Positions 5,162 to 12,942 of a stretch of DNA of 64,000 bases are shown here, piece by piece. The notes under the pieces were generated by a model. The model saw only the letters and a list, made by a program, of their open reading frames with translations, had not been told where the DNA came from and made no database searches. Position numbers and translations under genes: made by a program. Source of the DNA: Neorhizobium petrolearium (GTDB lineage Bacteria > Pseudomonadota > Alphaproteobacteria > Rhizobiales > Rhizobiaceae); the NCBI RefSeq assembly GCF_017873175.1, contig NZ_JAGGJW010000016.1:62001-126000 (forward strand), given 5' to 3'. Each line of letters opens with the position of its first letter. Within the stretch, counting starts at the first letter, position 1.

Positions 5162-6862
5162 CTAGTCAAAGCTCTCGACCAGTTTCCGGCGGAATTCGTC
5201 CATGCGGTAGACCGGCGTGCTTTTCAGAGGGATCATCCCGGCTTGCCAGTTCCAGCCGTCGATGCGTTTCAAGAGCTCTGGATTTCCCGTAACGACATGC
5301 ATCGGCACATCGCGGGAAGCCCCGTCGCCGGTAACGATCGAGGCCGGCTGATGATCGCCGAGCAGGATGAACAGCGTATTCCTGCCATAACGCGCCATAT
5401 AGGAACTCAGGACTTCGAGCGTGTAGTCGATCGAGGCAACATATTGCTTGCGGACGCGTTCCGGATCTGCCCAGACGACGGAAGGCGGATCGCCGCTTTC
5501 TGCCTGGACATTGAACACGGTGCCGTCACCGACCTGATCCCAGTCGATCAGCGTCGGGATCGGCGTCCAGGGCGCATGGCTGGAGATCAGTGCCATTTCC
5601 GCCATGACCGGTCTGTCGCCGGCATCGTTACGCCCCCGGCGCGCCAGCCGCTCGAAGGCTGCAAGTGTGTACTGGTCCGGCATCGTCACCCAATTGAACG
5701 GCTTGCCCTTGTAACCAAGGCCATGGGCGTCGTGCACGCTGTCATAACTGAAATAACCGGCTTCCGGCCAGTCCATGGTGATTGCCGGCATCACCGCCGT
5801 GGTCCGCCAGCCGGCCGAACGGAACAGGCTGTTGAGACTTCGCCGCTCGCTGGTGATCATCCGGTCGTAACGCGCCTGGTTGTCGATCCAGAGGCCGGAA
5901 AGCAGCGTGCCGTGGGCCAGCCAGCTTACGCCGCCGACCGTCGGCGAGGTGAGCCAGCCGCTGCGCGCCTGCAATCCCGCCGCCTCGATTTCCCGCTCCA
6001 TCAAGCCGAGACGATCGTCGATACGGGTGGCATAACGCGGATCCTCGATCGCGCTGCGGCCATAGGACTCGATGAAGATCAGCACCACGTCCGTGCCGGC
6101 GAGCGCCGAGAAATGCCGCCCGGCGGAAACCGGATCCTGCTTCACCTCATCCTCGAACCGGGCAAGATCGGCAACTGAATCTCTCACCATCGCGACGCGA
6201 TTGACAAAGTAGGGAACGCCCCGTGCCTCTACGCCGAGATTGCGACGATCATGATCCTGGACGATGAAGGCCGCCAACCCGACAAGGAAAAGGATGCCAC
6301 TTGCAAGGACGGATTTTCGTCGAGCCTCAACGGCTGAATGCCGAAAGCCGTCGAACGACCAGTAAAGCACGACCATCACCAGAAGCCATGCGACGAGGCC
6401 GGTGCAGATGATGCCGACCGCCACCGCCACTCCCACCGTACCGCTCAGGAGATTCCATCCGTCCGTCAGGATTTTGAGATCGAGATAGGGATTGAACGGA
6501 CGCTGGAAGACCATGCCAGTGCCGATATCCGCAAGCTTCAGGAACAGCATCGCGGCAAGAGACAGGGTAACGCCCCACTTCAGGATAGCAAAGCCGGTGC
6601 CGTCGAGCACCAATGCGAACAGCACGATGCCGATCACCTCCAGCGGAAACCGGATCTCCGAGACATTGGTGAGTGCCTCCGGACTGGAGGGCAGCACGAG
6701 GATCACCGCAACGATCACCAACGCAATTGCGATCCGCGGTAAGGACCGCTGATTTGGCTTGCCGCGCCGGGCGTCCCCTTTGCTTGCATTGTCCTCCTTA
6801 CGAAAAGACCGGTACTCATTCATTGCCACTCTTTCCGTCAATGCTTCGACTCCACCGGCCAT
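5162..6862 (-). CDS. Membrane-anchored sulfatase/alkaline-phosphatase-fold transferase or hydrolase
   Basis: A 566-residue protein. A basic cytoplasmic N-terminus is followed by about five hydrophobic helices (roughly residues 43-58, 73-95, 98-112, 142-168 and 184-200), then a large soluble domain outside the membrane. That domain has the metal-binding start VVLIFIESYG (near residues 259-268), a segment TSPTVGGVSW holding the likely Thr/Ser nucleophile (near 305-314), and a late LGDHQP metal motif (near 505). This architecture is shared by lipoteichoic-acid synthase, phosphoglycerol transferases and phosphoethanolamine transferases, which move phospho-alcohol groups from lipids to glycans. 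The start is 6862 or, equally possible, ATG 6823. It is the last gene of a leftward set after FkbM and CDP-alcohol transferase genes. The exact substrate cannot be told. Confidence 0.75.
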   Translation of the reverse strand: MAGGVEALTERVAMNEYRSFRKEDNASKGDARRGKPNQRSLPRIAIALVIVAVILVLPSSPEALTNVSEIRFPLEVIGIVLFALVLDGTGFAILKWGVTLSLAAMLFLKLADIGTGMVFQRPFNPYLDLKILTDGWNLLSGTVGVAVAVGIICTGLVAWLLVMVVLYWSFDGFRHSAVEARRKSVLASGILFLVGLAAFIVQDHDRRNLGVEARGVPYFVNRVAMVRDSVADLARFEDEVKQDPVSAGRHFSALAGTDVVLIFIESYGRSAIEDPRYATRIDDRLGLMEREIEAAGLQARSGWLTSPTVGGVSWLAHGTLLSGLWIDNQARYDRMITSERRSLNSLFRSAGWRTTAVMPAITMDWPEAGYFSYDSVHDAHGLGYKGKPFNWVTMPDQYTLAAFERLARRGRNDAGDRPVMAEMALISSHAPWTPIPTLIDWDQVGDGTVFNVQAESGDPPSVVWADPERVRKQYVASIDYTLEVLSSYMARYGRNTLFILLGDHQPASIVTGDGASRDVPMHVVTGNPELLKRIDGWNWQAGMIPLKSTPVYRMDEFRRKLVESFD

Positions 6863-6892: not shown

Positions 6893-7639
6893 TCATGCAT
6901 CACGCCGAGCATAAATATCGCCGGATAACTGCCGCCCCGCCAATCCCGGGAGCTCAGCCAATATGGTTTCGGCCGAGACCCATTCACCATGCGCGAAGCG
7001 GTGCCTTTCGCCTTCCACCCGATTGAAACGGTAGGGGCCAAGTTTCCGCATATGGCCAATCGCCTCCTCGGCAATTTCCATCGCCGCCGGAATATATTCG
7101 AAAGCGAGCAGCGGGATCGGATGATGCAAGTTGGCAAGAATATCCGCTTCCGCACCTTCCACATCAATCTTGCAGAAGGCCGGCAGACCATATTCATCGA
7201 TCAACGCGTCGAGCGTCGTCATTTCGACGCGTTCGACGCGGTTCCAGGTGACGTTGCGGAATCCGATGGTCTTCTCCACCTTTGAAATCCAGGACGGTGA
7301 GATACTCGTCACCGTTGGATGCCGGTCGGAAATATGAAGATCAACTGTGCCCGGTTGCTTGCCTACCGCCTTACGCACCAGAACCAGTTCTTCGCCGGCA
7401 AAAGACCGCGCGATAAAATCGGCAAATAGCGGCTGCGGTTCCAGTGCGATGACCTTGGCACCGAGGGAAAGAAGCGTCCGACTGCGATTGCCCGCATGTG
7501 CGCCGATATCGAAGATAAGATCGCTGGGCCTGATGAACTCGGCATAGAATCGTTTCAGTGAAGACCGTCGCCAGGGCTGGCCATAATAAATGAGCAGTGA
7601 GCGCGCAAGCCCAAGCGAAGCCGATAAGTCATGACGCAT
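6893..7639 (-). CDS. FkbM-family SAM-dependent methyltransferase
   Basis: A 248-residue protein with the SAM-binding motif FDIGAHAGN (residues 43-51), the acidic strand ALEPQP about 20 residues later, and the FkbM hallmark KIDVEGAE near residue 150. FkbM enzymes typically O-methylate sugars or polyketide hydroxyls. The start is ATG 7639, preceded by GAGGCGAAC, and overlaps the end of the CDP-alcohol phosphatidyltransferase gene by 11 bases. The sulfatase-fold gene begins about 30 bases after its stop. The setting suggests methylation of a glycan or glycolipid head group; that target is inferred. Confidence 0.85.
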   Translation of the reverse strand: MRHDLSASLGLARSLLIYYGQPWRRSSLKRFYAEFIRPSDLIFDIGAHAGNRSRTLLSLGAKVIALEPQPLFADFIARSFAGEELVLVRKAVGKQPGTVDLHISDRHPTVTSISPSWISKVEKTIGFRNVTWNRVERVEMTTLDALIDEYGLPAFCKIDVEGAEADILANLHHPIPLLAFEYIPAAMEIAEEAIGHMRKLGPYRFNRVEGERHRFAHGEWVSAETILAELPGLAGRQLSGDIYARRDA

Positions 7640-8462
7640 GTTCGCCTCGACTTGCGCGCAGAAGGAAAATCACATCCCACGCGAAGGAATAGGCAAGCGT
7701 GGCCAGCGCCCCCGCCGCAAGCATGGTCGAAACGGGCGGCATAACGAACGGGAACAGCATCAGACACAGTGCCGCCCCCTGCACGACGCAGATCAGCTTG
7801 CGGCGCACGGAAGGCGGCAGTTCGCCCTGCAGCCTGGGGATGATGCTTTGTGCCGCGCCATAAGCATAGCGCATCAGGCCGATCAGCAGGACCCAGATGC
7901 CCGCCTTGCCGAGTAGAAAAGCGGCAATCGACAGGAAGAGTATCAGCAAAGCATCGACTTCCATGTCAAACCGAGCGCCGAAACGCGAAGCGGTACGGGT
8001 TCGGCGGGCAAGATGGCCGTCGACACCATCCAGGGCGAGCGCGAACGCAACGATCGAGCCAATGAGCCACAAAGCTTCGGCGCGGGAGGCTTCGCCGAAC
8101 TGATCGGACACAAGCACCACTCCGCCTACGACGGCAGTAATTGCCGCCCGCACCGTCGTCGTCATATTCGCCGCGCCGAAACGGCCATGCCTGTGCGCGT
8201 GAAGATTGCCGAGCGCGATTGCGCAGATCGCGGCATAGATGACGAAGGCTGTGCCGATGGCAATCGTGTCCATGCCGAGACGATCTCCGAAACGATCCAT
8301 GGCGACGACGAGCACTGCGGCAACCGACACCATCACGGCAAAGGCGTCGAGCGAGAGCATGCGGAAAGCCCTGCGGGCCGCCATTTCGTCCGGATGGCCG
8401 GGATTCATCCATTCGACCATCGGACCCGCCTTTCGCCGGCATGGGGATCGGCTGTCCAGCAT
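7629..8462 (-). CDS. CDP-alcohol phosphatidyltransferase family membrane protein
   Basis: A 277-residue inner-membrane protein with the complete CDP-alcohol phosphatidyltransferase signature: DGVDGHLAR at residues 145-153, then G162, D166 and D170, that is D-x2-D-G-x2-A-R-x8-G-x3-D-x3-D. The conserved N-x-T-x2-R segment occurs earlier (NMTTTVR, residues 99-105). Several hydrophobic helices flank these. Such enzymes transfer a phospho-lipid or phospho-alcohol from a CDP donor, as in phosphatidylglycerol-phosphate or phosphatidylinositol synthases. The subfamily is not clear and it is not an obvious PgsA or PssA. The start may be 8462 or ATG 8420, which has the better AAAGGCGGG site. It is first in a three-gene leftward set. 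Confidence 0.85.
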   Translation of the reverse strand: MLDSRSPCRRKAGPMVEWMNPGHPDEMAARRAFRMLSLDAFAVMVSVAAVLVVAMDRFGDRLGMDTIAIGTAFVIYAAICAIALGNLHAHRHGRFGAANMTTTVRAAITAVVGGVVLVSDQFGEASRAEALWLIGSIVAFALALDGVDGHLARRTRTASRFGARFDMEVDALLILFLSIAAFLLGKAGIWVLLIGLMRYAYGAAQSIIPRLQGELPPSVRRKLICVVQGAALCLMLFPFVMPPVSTMLAAGALATLAYSFAWDVIFLLRASRGEHAS

Positions 8463-8693: not shown

Positions 8694-9695
8694 GTGACAA
8701 GGCGCGAGACAGTTCAGCAACCGGTGGGAGAGGAGAGCAGCCGTGCGCTGTGGTTCGAGGAGCCGGGTCGCTGCGTACATCGCAAGGAACCGCTTCCGCC
8801 GAAACGCGAAGACGATGTCCTGATTCGCACGCTTTATAGCGGCATCAGCCGCGGCACTGAGTTGCTTATCTTCCGCGGACAGGTGCCGGAAAGCGAATAT
8901 CAGCGCATGCGCGCTCCGCACCAGGCTGGGCAGTTCCCCTTTCCCGTGAAATACGGTTATGCCGCCGTCGGCGTCATCGAGGAAGGACCGGAGGCGGCCA
9001 TAGGCAGGCTGGTCTTCTGCTTGCACCCGCATCAGGACCGTTTTCGCGTGCCAGCCTCAGCGGTGCATACATTGCCGCAAAACCTTCCACCGCAGCGAGC
9101 GGTATTGGCTGCAAACATGGAAACAGCACTCAACATCATCTGGGATGGTGGCATTCAGCCAGGTGATCGGGTGGCGGTCTTTGGCGCTGGCGTGGTCGGA
9201 CTTCTGGTCGCCTGGATCGCCTCGCGGATCGCCGGCACGGAAGTCATGATTTCCGACATCGAGCCGGAACGCGCCGAGATTGCCCGGGCTCTCGGCCTTC
9301 ATTTCGTGCTGCCTGAGGCAATGCAGGATGATTGCGATGTCCTGATCAACGCCTCCGCGTCTTCCGCGGCCCTGGCAAAAGCGCTGAGCCATGCCGGCTT
9401 CGAAGCCCGTATAGTCGAAGCAAGCTGGTACGGTGAAAGACACGTCGAGCTTCCTCTCGGCAACGCCTTCCATGCCAAACGGCTCTCCATCGTCAGTTCC
9501 CAGGTTGGCGCATTGCCGCCCGGACGACGGGCTCGCTGGGATACGCACCGCCGCATGACAAAAGCACTTGAGCTTCTGGATGAAGACCGGCTCGACCACT
9601 TGATTTCAGGCGAGACCTCGTTCGAAACGATGGACCATGATTATCCCGGCATTATTGGCTCGTCTGCCACGCTCTGCCACCGCATCCGCTACTGA
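8694..9695 (+). CDS. MDR-superfamily dehydrogenase lacking the usual catalytic zinc ligands
   Basis: A 333-residue medium-chain dehydrogenase/reductase. The start is GTG 8694 after GAAAGG. The GroES-like domain carries SGISRGTE where zinc alcohol dehydrogenases have GICGTD, and KYGYAAVG in place of the GHE zinc motif, so the first two catalytic zinc ligands are missing. The Rossmann part has VFGAGVVG (near residue 163) and an acidic strand end, SDIEPER, which favours NAD. The SGIS-GTE form resembles the BchC-like and unclassified dehydrogenase branch. It opens a rightward set and is followed 11 bases later by the pterin-synthase-like gene, so a reductase or dehydrogenase step on the same intermediate is inferred. 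The substrate is unknown. Confidence 0.82.
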   Translation: MTRRETVQQPVGEESSRALWFEEPGRCVHRKEPLPPKREDDVLIRTLYSGISRGTELLIFRGQVPESEYQRMRAPHQAGQFPFPVKYGYAAVGVIEEGPEAAIGRLVFCLHPHQDRFRVPASAVHTLPQNLPPQRAVLAANMETALNIIWDGGIQPGDRVAVFGAGVVGLLVAWIASRIAGTEVMISDIEPERAEIARALGLHFVLPEAMQDDCDVLINASASSAALAKALSHAGFEARIVEASWYGERHVELPLGNAFHAKRLSIVSSQVGALPPGRRARWDTHRRMTKALELLDEDRLDHLISGETSFETMDHDYPGIIGSSATLCHRIRY

Positions 9696-9706
9696 GGGAA
9701 ATTTGC

Positions 9707-10105
9707 ATGTTCGCCATCGAAGTCCGCGATCACATCATGGTTGCGCATAGCCTCCCCCGACCGGTCTTCGGTCCCGCCCAGGGTCTGCATGGCGCGACAT
9801 TCACTGTGGATGCAGCTTTCTTTACCGACAATCTCGACGAGAACGGCCTTGCGGTCGATATCGGGCTTGCCACCGATGTGCTTAAGGAGGTGCTGGCGCC
9901 GTTGAACTACCAGAACCTTGATACACTGGATATTTTCGCTGGAAAGGTGACCACGACGGAATTCCTGGCGAAGCACATCTTCGATCGCATCGCCGAGGCG
10001 ATTGACAACGGCCGGCTTGGCGGGGGCGGTCAGCGCGTCCGCAAGCTTAGGATTATACTGAATGAATCCCACACCGCACGCGGCTGGTACGAGGCTGAGT
10101 TGTGA
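9707..10105 (+). CDS. 6-pyruvoyl-tetrahydropterin synthase / QueD-like T-fold protein with altered active site
   Basis: A 132-residue protein aligning by motif with QueD and PTPS. It has FAIEVRD...VAHSL at the start (H14 equals the first zinc histidine), LHGATF where the family has C-x3-HGH, NGLAVDIG where it has NGMVxDF, and NESHTARGWYE where the substrate-binding Glu sits (E120). Residues normally essential are changed: catalytic Cys is A24, the third zinc histidine is A30, and the catalytic LDH triplet is L66-N67-Y68. Only H14 and H28 of the zinc set remain. The fold and pterin-like binding are therefore likely, while canonical chemistry is not. The start codon of the next gene overlaps its stop (GTGA). 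Confidence 0.8.
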   Translation: MFAIEVRDHIMVAHSLPRPVFGPAQGLHGATFTVDAAFFTDNLDENGLAVDIGLATDVLKEVLAPLNYQNLDTLDIFAGKVTTTEFLAKHIFDRIAEAIDNGRLGGGGQRVRKLRIILNESHTARGWYEAEL

Positions 10106-11145
10106 GCCGTGATCTCATCTTCGCCTACCCGGGCGACATCGAAACACGCACCGGTGGTTATGGATATGATCGGCGCGTGATCGCCGCCCTTCGCGATATC
10201 GGCTGGAATGTCGAGCCGCTTTCTCTTGGCGAGGGGTTTCCGAACCCGAGCGCAACCCAGCTTGAAGCAGCCGATCGGATGCTTTGCGAGCTTCCTGAGA
10301 ACAGCCTTGTGCTGATCGATGGTTTGGCTTTCGGCGTCATGGACGAATGTGCCATCCGCCAGGCAAAGCGGCTCAAAATCATGGCGCTGGTGCATCATCC
10401 ACTGGCTCTGGAAACTGGGCTCGAACATAGGCAGCAAACGACCCTTGCCTCGTGCGAAAAAACCGCGCTGGCCCAGACCCGCGGGATAATCGTCACGTCG
10501 CATACCACCGCGGCCGAACTTTCTGCCAATTATGCGGTGCCGGCGGAGAAAATCACGGTCGCCATTCCCGGCATGGATCCCGCGCCTCTTTCAAAGGCTC
10601 GTGGCGAGCCGCCCCTGATCCTCAGTATCGGCACGCTGACCCCCCGGAAGGGCCACGACGTGCTGATTGCAGCGCTGGAAAAGCTGTCCGATCTTTCCTG
10701 GAACTGTCGCATTGTCGGCAGCAGGACGCTTGATCCCGACACCTCGGCTGCGCTGGAAAGGCAGATCATCCAATCGGGGCTTGGTGATCGGATTGAGTTC
10801 GCTGGTCAGATCGACGATCCACGCAACGAGTTTTCCAGGGCCGATATTTTCGCGCTGGCCAGCCGCTACGAGGGCTACGGCATGGTTTTTGCCGAAGCGC
10901 TTGCCCAAGGCCTGCCGATCGTCGGCTGCGCAGCGGGTGCCGTACCCGACGTCGTGCCGAGAAGCGCAGGCTTCCTTGTTCCTCCGGATGATCCCAAAGC
11001 ATTTGCTGCGGCTCTGCGCCGGCTGCTGGACGAACCGGAAACCCGAATCGCTATGGCGGACGCTGCGGCGACTGCCGGCGCCAAATTGCCCTCCTGGAGG
11101 GATACGGCCGCTATCATCTCCGACGTCCTGGAGGCCGCATCGTGA
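10102..11145 (+). CDS. GT4-family glycosyltransferase
   Basis: A 347-residue soluble glycosyltransferase of the GT-B fold. The C-terminal half shows ILSIGTLTPRKGHDVLI (residues 173-189), the GDRIEFAGQI strand, and the E-x7-E pair E257 and E265 in YEGYGMVFAE, followed by GLPIVG and a GFLVPPDDP end typical of family GT4. It would use a nucleotide sugar and retain the anomeric configuration. The GTG start at 10102 overlaps the stop of the T-fold gene by four bases and the next gene overlaps its own stop in the same way, so the three proteins are made in concert. The acceptor is unknown; the context suggests the product of the T-fold and dehydrogenase steps. Confidence 0.88.
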   Translation: MSRDLIFAYPGDIETRTGGYGYDRRVIAALRDIGWNVEPLSLGEGFPNPSATQLEAADRMLCELPENSLVLIDGLAFGVMDECAIRQAKRLKIMALVHHPLALETGLEHRQQTTLASCEKTALAQTRGIIVTSHTTAAELSANYAVPAEKITVAIPGMDPAPLSKARGEPPLILSIGTLTPRKGHDVLIAALEKLSDLSWNCRIVGSRTLDPDTSAALERQIIQSGLGDRIEFAGQIDDPRNEFSRADIFALASRYEGYGMVFAEALAQGLPIVGCAAGAVPDVVPRSAGFLVPPDDPKAFAAALRRLLDEPETRIAMADAAATAGAKLPSWRDTAAIISDVLEAAS

Positions 11146-11927
11146 GTGGCTTCGACAAAAATTGGCTGGCACTTCGGGAACCGGTAGATGCCCGTTCGCG
11201 TGACAAGGCTTTGCTGGCCGCCGCAGCCGAAACCATCGAGAGCGCTCCTGGCAGCACCATCCTTGACGTCGGCTGCGGGACGGGCGCGACCTTCCGTGCA
11301 CTTGCGCCGAAAGTTGAGAGGAAAGTCCACTGGCGGCTGTTCGATAACGACAAGCGGCTGTTGGATGAAGCCCGCCGGCTTCATGGTAACGCGGTCGAGC
11401 TCATCCGCTGCGATCTCAACAATATCGAAGCACTGCCGTTGACGGATGCGAGACTGGTAACGGCATCGGCATTGTTCGACCTCTGTTCCGAGCAATTCAT
11501 CCGCCGGTTCGCCGAACGGATTTCCAGGACCGGTATCGGCCTTTACGCCGCACTGAACTACGACGGGGAAATGACTTGGTCGCAGCCGCATCCGCTGGAC
11601 CAGGCGATCGCAGGAAGTTTCAACGCGCATCAACTGAGTGACAAGGGTTTCGGCGTTTCGCTTGGGCCGGCCGCTTGGAAGACGCTGGTCGAATGCCTGA
11701 AGGAGAGGGGCTATACGCTGCAGGTTGCCTCGTCTCCATGGATCATGACGGCAGCCGATGCCGGTCTGCAGCGGTTATTTATCGATGGCGTTATCCGCGC
11801 GATCTATGAGTACGGCCAACTTGACGAGGCTGAAATCCGGGATTGGATCAAATTTCGGTATCGGATGATTGACCAGCCAGACAGCTTATGCCGTGTCGGT
11901 CACCAGGATATTCTCGCATCCCGGTGA
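11142..11927 (+). CDS. Class I SAM-dependent methyltransferase
   Basis: A 261-residue protein with motif I LDVGCGTG (residues 41-48), a motif II acidic residue in RLFDND, and motif III-like CDLNNIEALP. The rest is not recognisable beyond the fold, and the family (O-, N- or C-methylation) cannot be assigned. It starts with GTG at 11142, overlapping the glycosyltransferase stop (GTGA). Its last 42 bases (11886-11927) overlap the end of the convergent RibD-like gene on the other strand. It is the last gene of the rightward set, so a late tailoring methylation is inferred. Confidence 0.85.
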   Translation: MSGFDKNWLALREPVDARSRDKALLAAAAETIESAPGSTILDVGCGTGATFRALAPKVERKVHWRLFDNDKRLLDEARRLHGNAVELIRCDLNNIEALPLTDARLVTASALFDLCSEQFIRRFAERISRTGIGLYAALNYDGEMTWSQPHPLDQAIAGSFNAHQLSDKGFGVSLGPAAWKTLVECLKERGYTLQVASSPWIMTAADAGLQRLFIDGVIRAIYEYGQLDEAEIRDWIKFRYRMIDQPDSLCRVGHQDILASR

Positions 11928-12713
11928 GCCGCTCTGCTGCCGGACTTCGATCCGCAGATTGCAGTCGAAGAGGATATCTGTGCCGATATTGTAGACTTGG
12001 ATCTTCGGACGACGCGCCTCTGAAAGCCGGTCGATCGGCGGAAGCCGGATTCCGGTAGGCCCCGAACCGATGATGATCGGTGAAACCGACACATGCAGCC
12101 TGTCAACCAGTTCCGCGTCGATGAAACGGGAAATCGTCCTGGCGCCGCCTTCCACGAGCACTGTGGTCAGAGAGCGCTCGGTGAGCACGGCCAGGATATC
12201 GCGCGGCGAAAGCCCGCCATCGGCGCGGCGTGGCAGCCGGATGATTTCGTGCTTGCCGTTGCGGAGCGGCACGTCGTCCGCCTGCACGACGAGAGCGGGC
12301 ATGCCGCCGTCATGCAGCATTTTAGCGCGTTCGGGCATGCGGCCGTTGCAATCCACCACGACCCGAACCGGGCTTCTGCCGCGGACTGCGCGGACGGAAA
12401 GGCTCGGATTGTCGGCGACAACCGTCCCCACACCGACGATAACCGCATCCACCAGCGCACGGCAGCGGTGAAGATGAGCGATCCCGTCGGATCCCGAAAC
12501 ATTCTGGGCGTCACCCGCCGGGGTTGCGATGCGCCCGTCCAGCGACTGACCAACCTGAGCCAGCACAAACGGTCCATCACGTAGCGCGATCGGCTTGTAA
12601 AGCGTCAGACAGGAGATATCGACATCCGCGGAAGATCCGACCGGCCGAGACCAGTTTTCGCGAAGCGAAAGCAGATGCTGCCACAACTCGTCCGTCATTC
12701 TGACTGGTTGCAT
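11886..12713 (-). CDS. Stand-alone RibD C-terminal-type reductase
   Basis: A 275-residue protein of the RibD C-terminal/dihydrofolate-reductase-like fold. Motifs are AQVGQSLDGRIA (residues 52-63), DAVIVGVGTVVADNPSL (89-105), PVRVVVD, and the NADPH-site LVEGG. The deaminase domain of bifunctional RibD is absent. Start 12713 is chosen over an in-frame ATG at 12755 because GAGGTGGG lies four bases before it. Known relatives reduce ribosylamino-pyrimidines (riboflavin synthesis) or dihydropterins such as dihydromethanopterin. It faces the T-fold/GT/MT genes tail to tail, overlapping the methyltransferase by 42 bases, and probably works with them. A role in ordinary riboflavin synthesis is the alternative. 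Confidence 0.8.
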   Translation of the reverse strand: MQPVRMTDELWQHLLSLRENWSRPVGSSADVDISCLTLYKPIALRDGPFVLAQVGQSLDGRIATPAGDAQNVSGSDGIAHLHRCRALVDAVIVGVGTVVADNPSLSVRAVRGRSPVRVVVDCNGRMPERAKMLHDGGMPALVVQADDVPLRNGKHEIIRLPRRADGGLSPRDILAVLTERSLTTVLVEGGARTISRFIDAELVDRLHVSVSPIIIGSGPTGIRLPPIDRLSEARRPKIQVYNIGTDILFDCNLRIEVRQQSGSPGCENILVTDTA

Positions 12714-12942
12714 ATCCCACCTCGCTGTCCCGCCGGAAAATGGAAATGCGGGCACCCGTAAAAGGTTCCTCTCCGAAGGGAGATGTCATTGTAATACGCG
12801 CGCAGATTTCACCAGATCAACACTCCGTTAATGCGGCCACCATTGCAAATGCCTTGCGAATATCGGCAGCGGCAACGCCGACTATAACATCCGCTGGCGC
12901 CCGAATTGGACTTACGGCTTCTGGAGATGAAAGGAATGCTGA

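Follow-up and report, generated by a model that had tools for sequence, protein, structure and literature searches.

A PTPS-IV T-fold protein without the canonical catalytic residues, encoded in a recurrent operon of Neorhizobium petrolearium

The window analyzed here, a 64,000-nucleotide stretch of Neorhizobium petrolearium DNA (contig NZ_JAGGJW010000016.1, positions 62,001 to 126,000), encodes at positions 9707..10105 of its plus strand a T-fold protein (P0001) related to QueD and 6-pyruvoyltetrahydropterin synthase (PTPS) that has neither the catalytic Cys nor the Asp-His dyad of these enzymes and is missing the third of their zinc His. It belongs to the known, uncharacterized PTPS-IV/SCO6650 subfamily. 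On balance, we think it probable that the protein is functional as an enzyme and has been repurposed, so that its T-fold would bind a 2-amino-4-oxo pyrimidine or a pterin and perform one step of an operon-encoded pathway without Cys, Asp or His and probably without zinc. That these residues are missing in many bacteria, in most cases next to the same partner genes, points to an uncharacterized biosynthetic pathway, not to a dying gene.

Fold and residue state of the T-fold protein

The open reading frame (ORF) runs from ATG to TGA, encodes 132 amino acids and contains no frameshift. It starts 11 bp after a dehydrogenase gene and overlaps the following glycosyltransferase gene by 4 bases, and the glycosyltransferase and methyltransferase genes overlap by a further 4 bases; the tight coupling and intact frame described in an initial annotation of the sequence are thus both present. 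A minus-strand ORF at 9689-10072 is taken as a shadow ORF. The protein matches PF01242 with 73 bits (cut-off 22.4; E 2.6e-20), which places it in the COG0720 PTPS-QueD superfamily, and an AlphaFold model computed from 31 sequences (mean predicted local distance difference test score 89.5) matches PTPS structures, in agreement with the T-fold first proposed for it. Model confidence drops in the segment that contains the FGPAQ loop, residues 11-30 (block means 70 and 63). The best match of the model in the PDB is 3d7j, the SCO6650 protein of Streptomyces coelicolor (Z 21.5, 1.4 Å over 132 residues, 56% identity over the full length), and most canonical PTPS/QueD entries among the matches listed reach Z 13-16. 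Dihydroneopterin aldolases share the fold class (Z 8.7-9.8 among the matches listed) but form a separate subfamily, with 10-18% sequence identity. The dihydroneopterin aldolase FolB is a T-fold enzyme that works without metal and is a precedent for metal-free pterin chemistry.

The catalytic residues were compared in an alignment with SCO6650 and with the QueD of the same genome, which is canonical (CARLHGH ... FDHRHLN, i.e., Cys, HGH and Asp-His). Ala24 stands at the position of the catalytic Cys, leaving neither a CxxxHGH nor a CxxxxxHGH motif, Ala30 aligns with the third zinc His, and Asn67-Tyr68 align with the Asp-His catalytic pair; active QueD (PTPS-I) and 6-pyruvoyltetrahydropterin synthase (PTPS-II) have all of these. 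The two zinc His that these enzymes share with the window protein, His14 and His28, are kept, and Glu120 aligns with the conserved substrate Glu, so that each replacement and retention read initially from the sequence recurs in the alignments. The NCBIfam QueD equivalog scores 35.2 bits against a cut-off of 89.25. Chance or misalignment as the source of the residue losses was ruled out by the agreement of the genome's own QueD, SCO6650 and the structure model. A phage origin was also rejected, as just four QueD-like Bacillus phage proteins were matched, at 27% identity.

The FGPAQ signature at residues 21-25 assigns the protein to PTPS-IV. SCO6650, whose structure was released in 2008, carries the same substitutions (A24, HGA and LNY); its authors reportedly found a pterin-compatible pocket in a protein that is free of zinc, has no catalytic triad and is inactive as a PTPS. 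In the parts of PMC5445326 available to us, cluster-node 62 (561 sequences) is described with the PTPS-IV signature FGPAQ and with PF00925 and PF01872 neighbors. The window gene shares the motif and has a RibD_C (PF01872) neighbor at 11886-12755, but no PF00925 gene lies in the cluster of its own clade. An oddity confined to a single gene, as implied by the initial annotation, is therefore not supported. In those parts of PMC5445326 we found no description of the core of dehydrogenase, PTPS, glycosyltransferase family 4 (GT4) and methyltransferase genes; what is added here is this operon, a sister clade that retains the zinc ligands, and a pairing of GTP cyclohydrolase II (GCH II) with a creatininase-family gene. 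PTPS-IV is a large group, for which one scan across species genomes gave at least 551 stretches that encode a member, and public records often label its members 6-carboxytetrahydropterin synthase, an enzyme whose catalytic Cys and Asp-His pair they lack.

Conservation, selection and sister clades

A search of 60 genomes with the full-length protein returned 37 matches, including the window's own, and 23 genomes without a match. A24, Q25, A30, Y68, H14, H28, E85, E120 and M11 are present in 37/37 matches, and N67, H9 and H122 in 36/37 each. Canonical residues in related genomes had been named beforehand as the finding that would speak against the initial annotation, but not one of the 36 relatives that carry the gene has retained them. 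A wider motif table, in which 157 rows were collapsed to 138, leaves out loci L107-L141 and has no data for residues 24-30 of the incomplete L156/L185. It contains 113 unique sequences of an HGA group, defined by residues 28-30, in which A24, Q25, H14, H28, Y68, D51, T84, E85 and E120 are invariant. Eighty loci were fetched by DNA patterns derived from HGATFxVDA and PVFGPAQG, which makes the motif counts of this set circular in part; free of this circularity are the 37 matches above and 30 loci from an actinobacterial search described below. Within the FGPAQ/HGA clade, position 67 can be N, R, T, K, A or D, but Tyr68 does not vary (113/113). Tyr68 is therefore a fixed part of the altered pattern, and Asn67, which had been counted with it, falls outside the signature.

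The gene is under purifying selection, with a ratio of nonsynonymous to synonymous substitution rates (dN/dS) of 0.041-0.119 in comparisons with six relatives and of 0.075-0.13 for three closer pairs, dS being close to saturation in some of the pairs. That the protein is a decaying remnant of QueD might be read from the loss of all canonical catalytic residues, but this explanation is hardly credible and already contradicted: dN/dS stays at 0.04-0.13, the substitutions are identical in 37/37 matches, the operon is conserved across phyla and the frame is unbroken. We therefore rejected it. Purifying selection, the fixed residue pattern and the conserved operon instead bear out the earlier suggestion of a changed reaction or a binding role.

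A binding role alone would make the protein a pseudoenzyme that binds or carries a pterin- or pyrimidine-like intermediate between the operon enzymes, or a scaffold. Such a protein could do without the canonical catalytic side chains, all of which are gone, and could still retain the ring-anchoring E120 and T84-E85, which are invariant (113/113), in a gene mostly kept between the same partners. However, H14 and Y68 (113/113) and H9 (111/113), which lie in the region of the pocket and are capable of acid-base chemistry, are as conserved as these anchors, beyond the needs of plain binding. His28 is likewise conserved, in 37/37 proteins of the 60-genome set (in the wider set it is part of the definition of the HGA clade). 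We consider a non-catalytic role unlikely, and the repurposed enzyme remains the explanation that we prefer.

In a profile search of 396 actinobacterial genomes 69 matched, and 30 loci were read: eight HGA, 16 HGH-A24, four with Cys and Asp-His, one incomplete, and the locus of the center genome itself (L141, which marks the same place as L082 and stands outside the motif table). The 16 proteins form a sister clade with FGPA, A24 and an intact HGH, i.e., all three zinc His, and with no intact Asp-His pair (position 67: H 12, N 2, D 2; position 68: Y 14, F 2), while the four others keep Cys, HGH and Asp-His. Matches to RibD_C, dehydrogenase and GT4 flank 16/16 of the Cys-less HGH proteins and 0/4 of those with Cys and Asp-His, in short loci of ~2.0-3.4 kb. 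When seven sister-clade loci were enlarged to 20 kb, the same three genes were again found, and an unrelated-looking methyltransferase ORF followed GT4 in 5/7 (one member Pfam-checked). The two clades share their dehydrogenase, GT4 and RibD_C neighbors but differ in the third zinc ligand, and so provide a natural experiment on the route by which a zinc T-fold enzyme can become independent of its metal.

A tree of 61 rows, computed with the trait columns excluded, recovers the HGA group (98/93), the HGH-A24 group (100/98) and the two together (96/88). Each of four groups is one side of a tree branch, with three changes, the minimum for four groups, and the HGA clade has a single origin. The row for E. 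coli 4ntk, a construct with Ala at Cys27 that is presumably an engineered change, was excluded. Because the sister clade without Cys and without an intact Asp-His pair keeps three zinc His, the PTPS machinery seems to have been lost before the zinc ligand was. Cys and Asp-His would have been lost first, together with the appearance of the operon, and the third zinc His later, only in the FGPAQ/HGA clade; we infer this order, since the tree is midpoint-rooted and the branch of the genome's own QueD is long.

This order bears on a further alternative, namely that the protein performs ordinary PTPS/QueD chemistry and that residues elsewhere stand in for the missing ones, for instance in a metal site of H9, M11, H14 and H28. 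His9 (111/113) and Met11 (113/113) are fixed in the HGA clade and occur in 0/16 HGH sisters at those positions, so they changed along with the third His. Yet 16/16 sister-clade proteins lack the Cys and 0/16 have an intact Asp-His pair while retaining three zinc His, which suggests that the chemistry changed before zinc was lost. Given also the low QueD equivalog score and the genome's own canonical QueD, we regard this alternative as quite improbable.

The operon and its neighborhood

The first gene of the core operon encodes a BchC-like dehydrogenase of the medium-chain dehydrogenase/reductase (MDR) type (8694..9695, plus strand; start codon uncertain), assigned by Pfam/NCBIfam and alignment and lying near -0.7 kb in most loci. 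After the PTPS-IV gene come a GT4-family glycosyltransferase (10102..11145, plus strand), whose start overlaps the PTPS-IV stop, and a class I S-adenosylmethionine-dependent methyltransferase (11142..11927, plus strand), both assigned by Pfam and neighborhood. A stand-alone RibD_C-type reductase with no other Pfam domain (11886..12755, minus strand; Pfam/NCBIfam) is convergent with the operon. The genome has four PF01872 matches, another of which lies in a 368-amino-acid frame of the size of a bifunctional RibD.

Among 88 loci, within 3 kb and on the same strand as the PTPS gene, we found the dehydrogenase in 84, GT4 in 73, the methyltransferase in 87 and all three in 73; RibD_C lies within 3.5 kb in 61/88, and a CDP-alcohol transferase within 10 kb in 60/88. 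The same core order is found on plasmids of Streptomyces fungicidicus, Thiodictyon, Methylosinus and Microbacterium and on two haloarchaeal plasmids. In the latter, the PTPS of the dehydrogenase-PTPS-GT4-methyltransferase cluster has HSH, Glu at the Cys position and no Asp-His pair. The S. fungicidicus homologue is 91.5% identical to SCO6650 and sits in this type of operon. Two clusters in records of a gammaproteobacterium (L072, Xanthomonas sp. AmX2) and an actinobacterium (L082, an Aquiluna metagenome-assembled genome) are ~70% identical to the window's in the PTPS protein and reflect horizontal transfer or contamination.

The dehydrogenase is annotated as zinc-binding in related records. 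By eye, in an alignment with one zinc-type MDR, the window copy has no structural zinc lobe and none of the usual catalytic zinc ligands, with Ser in SGIS where Cys is expected and GYA in place of GHE; the catalytic ligands are also missing from the aligned Streptomyces, Haloarcula and sister-clade copies, none of which can be counted as a zinc-dependent MDR. Because of this, two adjacent enzymes of the operon, the dehydrogenase and PTPS-IV, appear from their residues to have lost a metal site.

Upstream in the window, on the minus strand, lie accessory genes for a CDP-alcohol phosphatidyltransferase-family protein (7629..8462; Pfam, neighborhood), an FkbM-type methyltransferase (6893..7639; Pfam/NCBIfam, neighborhood) and a sulfatase/alkaline-phosphatase-like domain protein (5162..6862; 24.9 bits, Pfam cut-off 25). 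Cytochrome b561, sulfatase-like and FkbM genes are accessory in Proteobacteria; an LPG_synthase_TM membrane protein is encoded beside the operon in Microbacterium and Streptomyces, and an MdoH-like glucosyltransferase in Methylosinus and on a Neorhizobium plasmid. Because CDP-alcohol transferase, LPG_synthase_TM, sulfatase-like proteins and cytochrome b561 adjoin the operon in different lineages, a link of its product to membranes or lipids is possible.

A putative route from GTP

The operon offers a concrete pathway hypothesis, which would start from GTP via the riboflavin-type pyrimidine branch. GCH II would yield 2,5-diamino-6-ribosylamino-4(3H)-pyrimidinone 5'-phosphate, and RibD_C, where present, would reduce the ribosyl to a ribityl group with the 2-amino group retained. 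The conserved Glu of PTPS enzymes recognizes the 2-amino edge of the ring, and the T-fold pocket of PTPS-IV may hold a 2-amino-4-oxo-pyrimidine or pterin ring via E120 and T84-E85. Side-chain work by Cys, Asp and His would have been given up, zinc would probably also go unused in the HGA clade, and the clade-fixed H9, M11, H14, H28 and Y68 could supply acid-base chemistry, as in metal-free T-fold enzymes. The dehydrogenase, GT4 and methyltransferase would then oxidize, glycosylate and methylate the product.

Evidence for a pyrimidine precursor comes from GCH II. Of 139 loci searched, 30 of them shorter than 5 kb and possibly too short to reach the gene, 56 contain a cluster GCH II, always with three zinc Cys (56/56). 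The position of E. coli Tyr105 is Tyr in 48 of these proteins and Met in eight. A creatininase-family homologue occurs in 8/8 Met loci vs 1/48 Tyr loci (Fisher p 6e-9, for loci that lack phylogenetic independence: two in the Met set are from Streptomyces and the other six are close to them), and in the lone Tyr locus, L101, the match has 31% identity and is ~7.9 kb away from the PTPS gene. The Met form of GCH II, known from SCO6655, reportedly stops at the formylamino pyrimidine. The Streptomyces creatininase-family protein scores best as MftE-like, under that family's cut-off, and only weakly as ArfB, which leaves its activity putative. According to PMC9478397, the creatininase-family protein BrbF removes the formyl group of the formylamino intermediate in Sinorhizobium, where the first enzyme is still missing. 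The separate cyclohydrolase and deformylase of this archaeal-type branch are mirrored by the Met-type GCH II and its creatininase-family neighbor, but the Streptomyces-type pair, of putative activity, adjoins PTPS-IV, GT4 and methyltransferase genes. The Streptomyces-type clusters thus seem to split one reaction into two, in archaeal style, and the pairing therefore ties the operon to a formylamino-type pyrimidine.

The window's own cluster differs from these, as it has RibD_C and no GCH II whereas the GCH II-bearing Streptomyces-type clusters have the Met form and the creatininase-family gene. The genome has a single PF00925 domain, and this lies on contig C1, the window being on C16. It belongs to a RibBA-type protein (L003, C1:640712-641167) that lacks all three zinc Cys, so no ordinary GCH II is visible in a genome that must nevertheless make riboflavin. 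In some close relatives GCH II lies between the CDP-alcohol transferase and dehydrogenase genes; the window's own clade lacks it and has a gap ~1 kb shorter at this place (L019, L020, L021, L022, L031 and L042 compared with L024, L026 and L027). The window's genome has six creatininase-family genes.

In its widest form, the hypothesis is tentative and in our estimate stands below even chances. It holds that an undescribed pathway common to bacteria and haloarchaea leads to a pteridine or pyrimidine that is glycosylated and methylated and may be linked to membranes or lipids; that a T-fold enzyme free of metal, which arose from a zinc enzyme while in this operon, performs the ring step; and that Streptomyces uses a split, archaeal-style start, with a GCH II that stops at the formylamino pyrimidine and a creatininase-family deformylase.

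A role in coenzyme F420 or deazaflavin biosynthesis is a little less probable even than unaltered PTPS/QueD chemistry. The proposed ribityl pyrimidine is a precursor of the F420/flavin type, and haloarchaeal operons exist; however, no F420 family in Pfam or NCBIfam is among the matches listed for the eight window proteins scanned, and the operon has a GT4 and a methyltransferase, which F420 synthesis does not need. PMC5041015 states as unpublished that PTPS-IV takes part in F420 synthesis, although the PTPS-IV of that remark may not mean the FGPAQ group.

Several observations weigh against a catalytic PTPS-IV acting in such a pathway. A binding-only role fits the same data, and SCO6650 is said to be inactive as a PTPS. 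Some FGPAQ loci have only part of the core (L184 and L188 gave no match for the methyltransferase, L189 none for GT4), and two Streptomyces plasmids (L147 and L186) carry the PTPS-IV gene without the operon. Queries for GCH II, CDP-alcohol transferase, creatininase and the methyltransferase gave no match in the seven 20-kb sister-clade loci, and RibD_C gave none in 7/8 Met-type loci, so the ribityl step is not universal. The absence of GCH II from the window cluster, where a PF00925 neighbor is a tendency of the subfamily and not a strict rule, and the missing zinc Cys of the genome's PF00925 protein point the same way. No established function, substrate or activity of PTPS-IV was found in the portions of the literature seen, and those of PMC2853524, PMC13118837, PMC4814558 and PMC3223725 gave no further information on function; a name for the operon or its product was likewise not found in a partial search of open-license papers, which does not establish absence from print.

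Two side observations concern the variant loci. Within a few kb of PTPS-IV, both L147 and L186 encode a MEKHLA-domain protein, cupins and a metallo-β-lactamase-fold hydrolase, a conserved-looking second context for the gene. In 5/7 of the enlarged HGH clusters a FolB ORF lies divergently upstream (one member Pfam-checked); in L193 it spans 12001-12378, upstream of RibD_C, and encodes, with a Pfam score of 124 bits, a second pterin-type T-fold protein.
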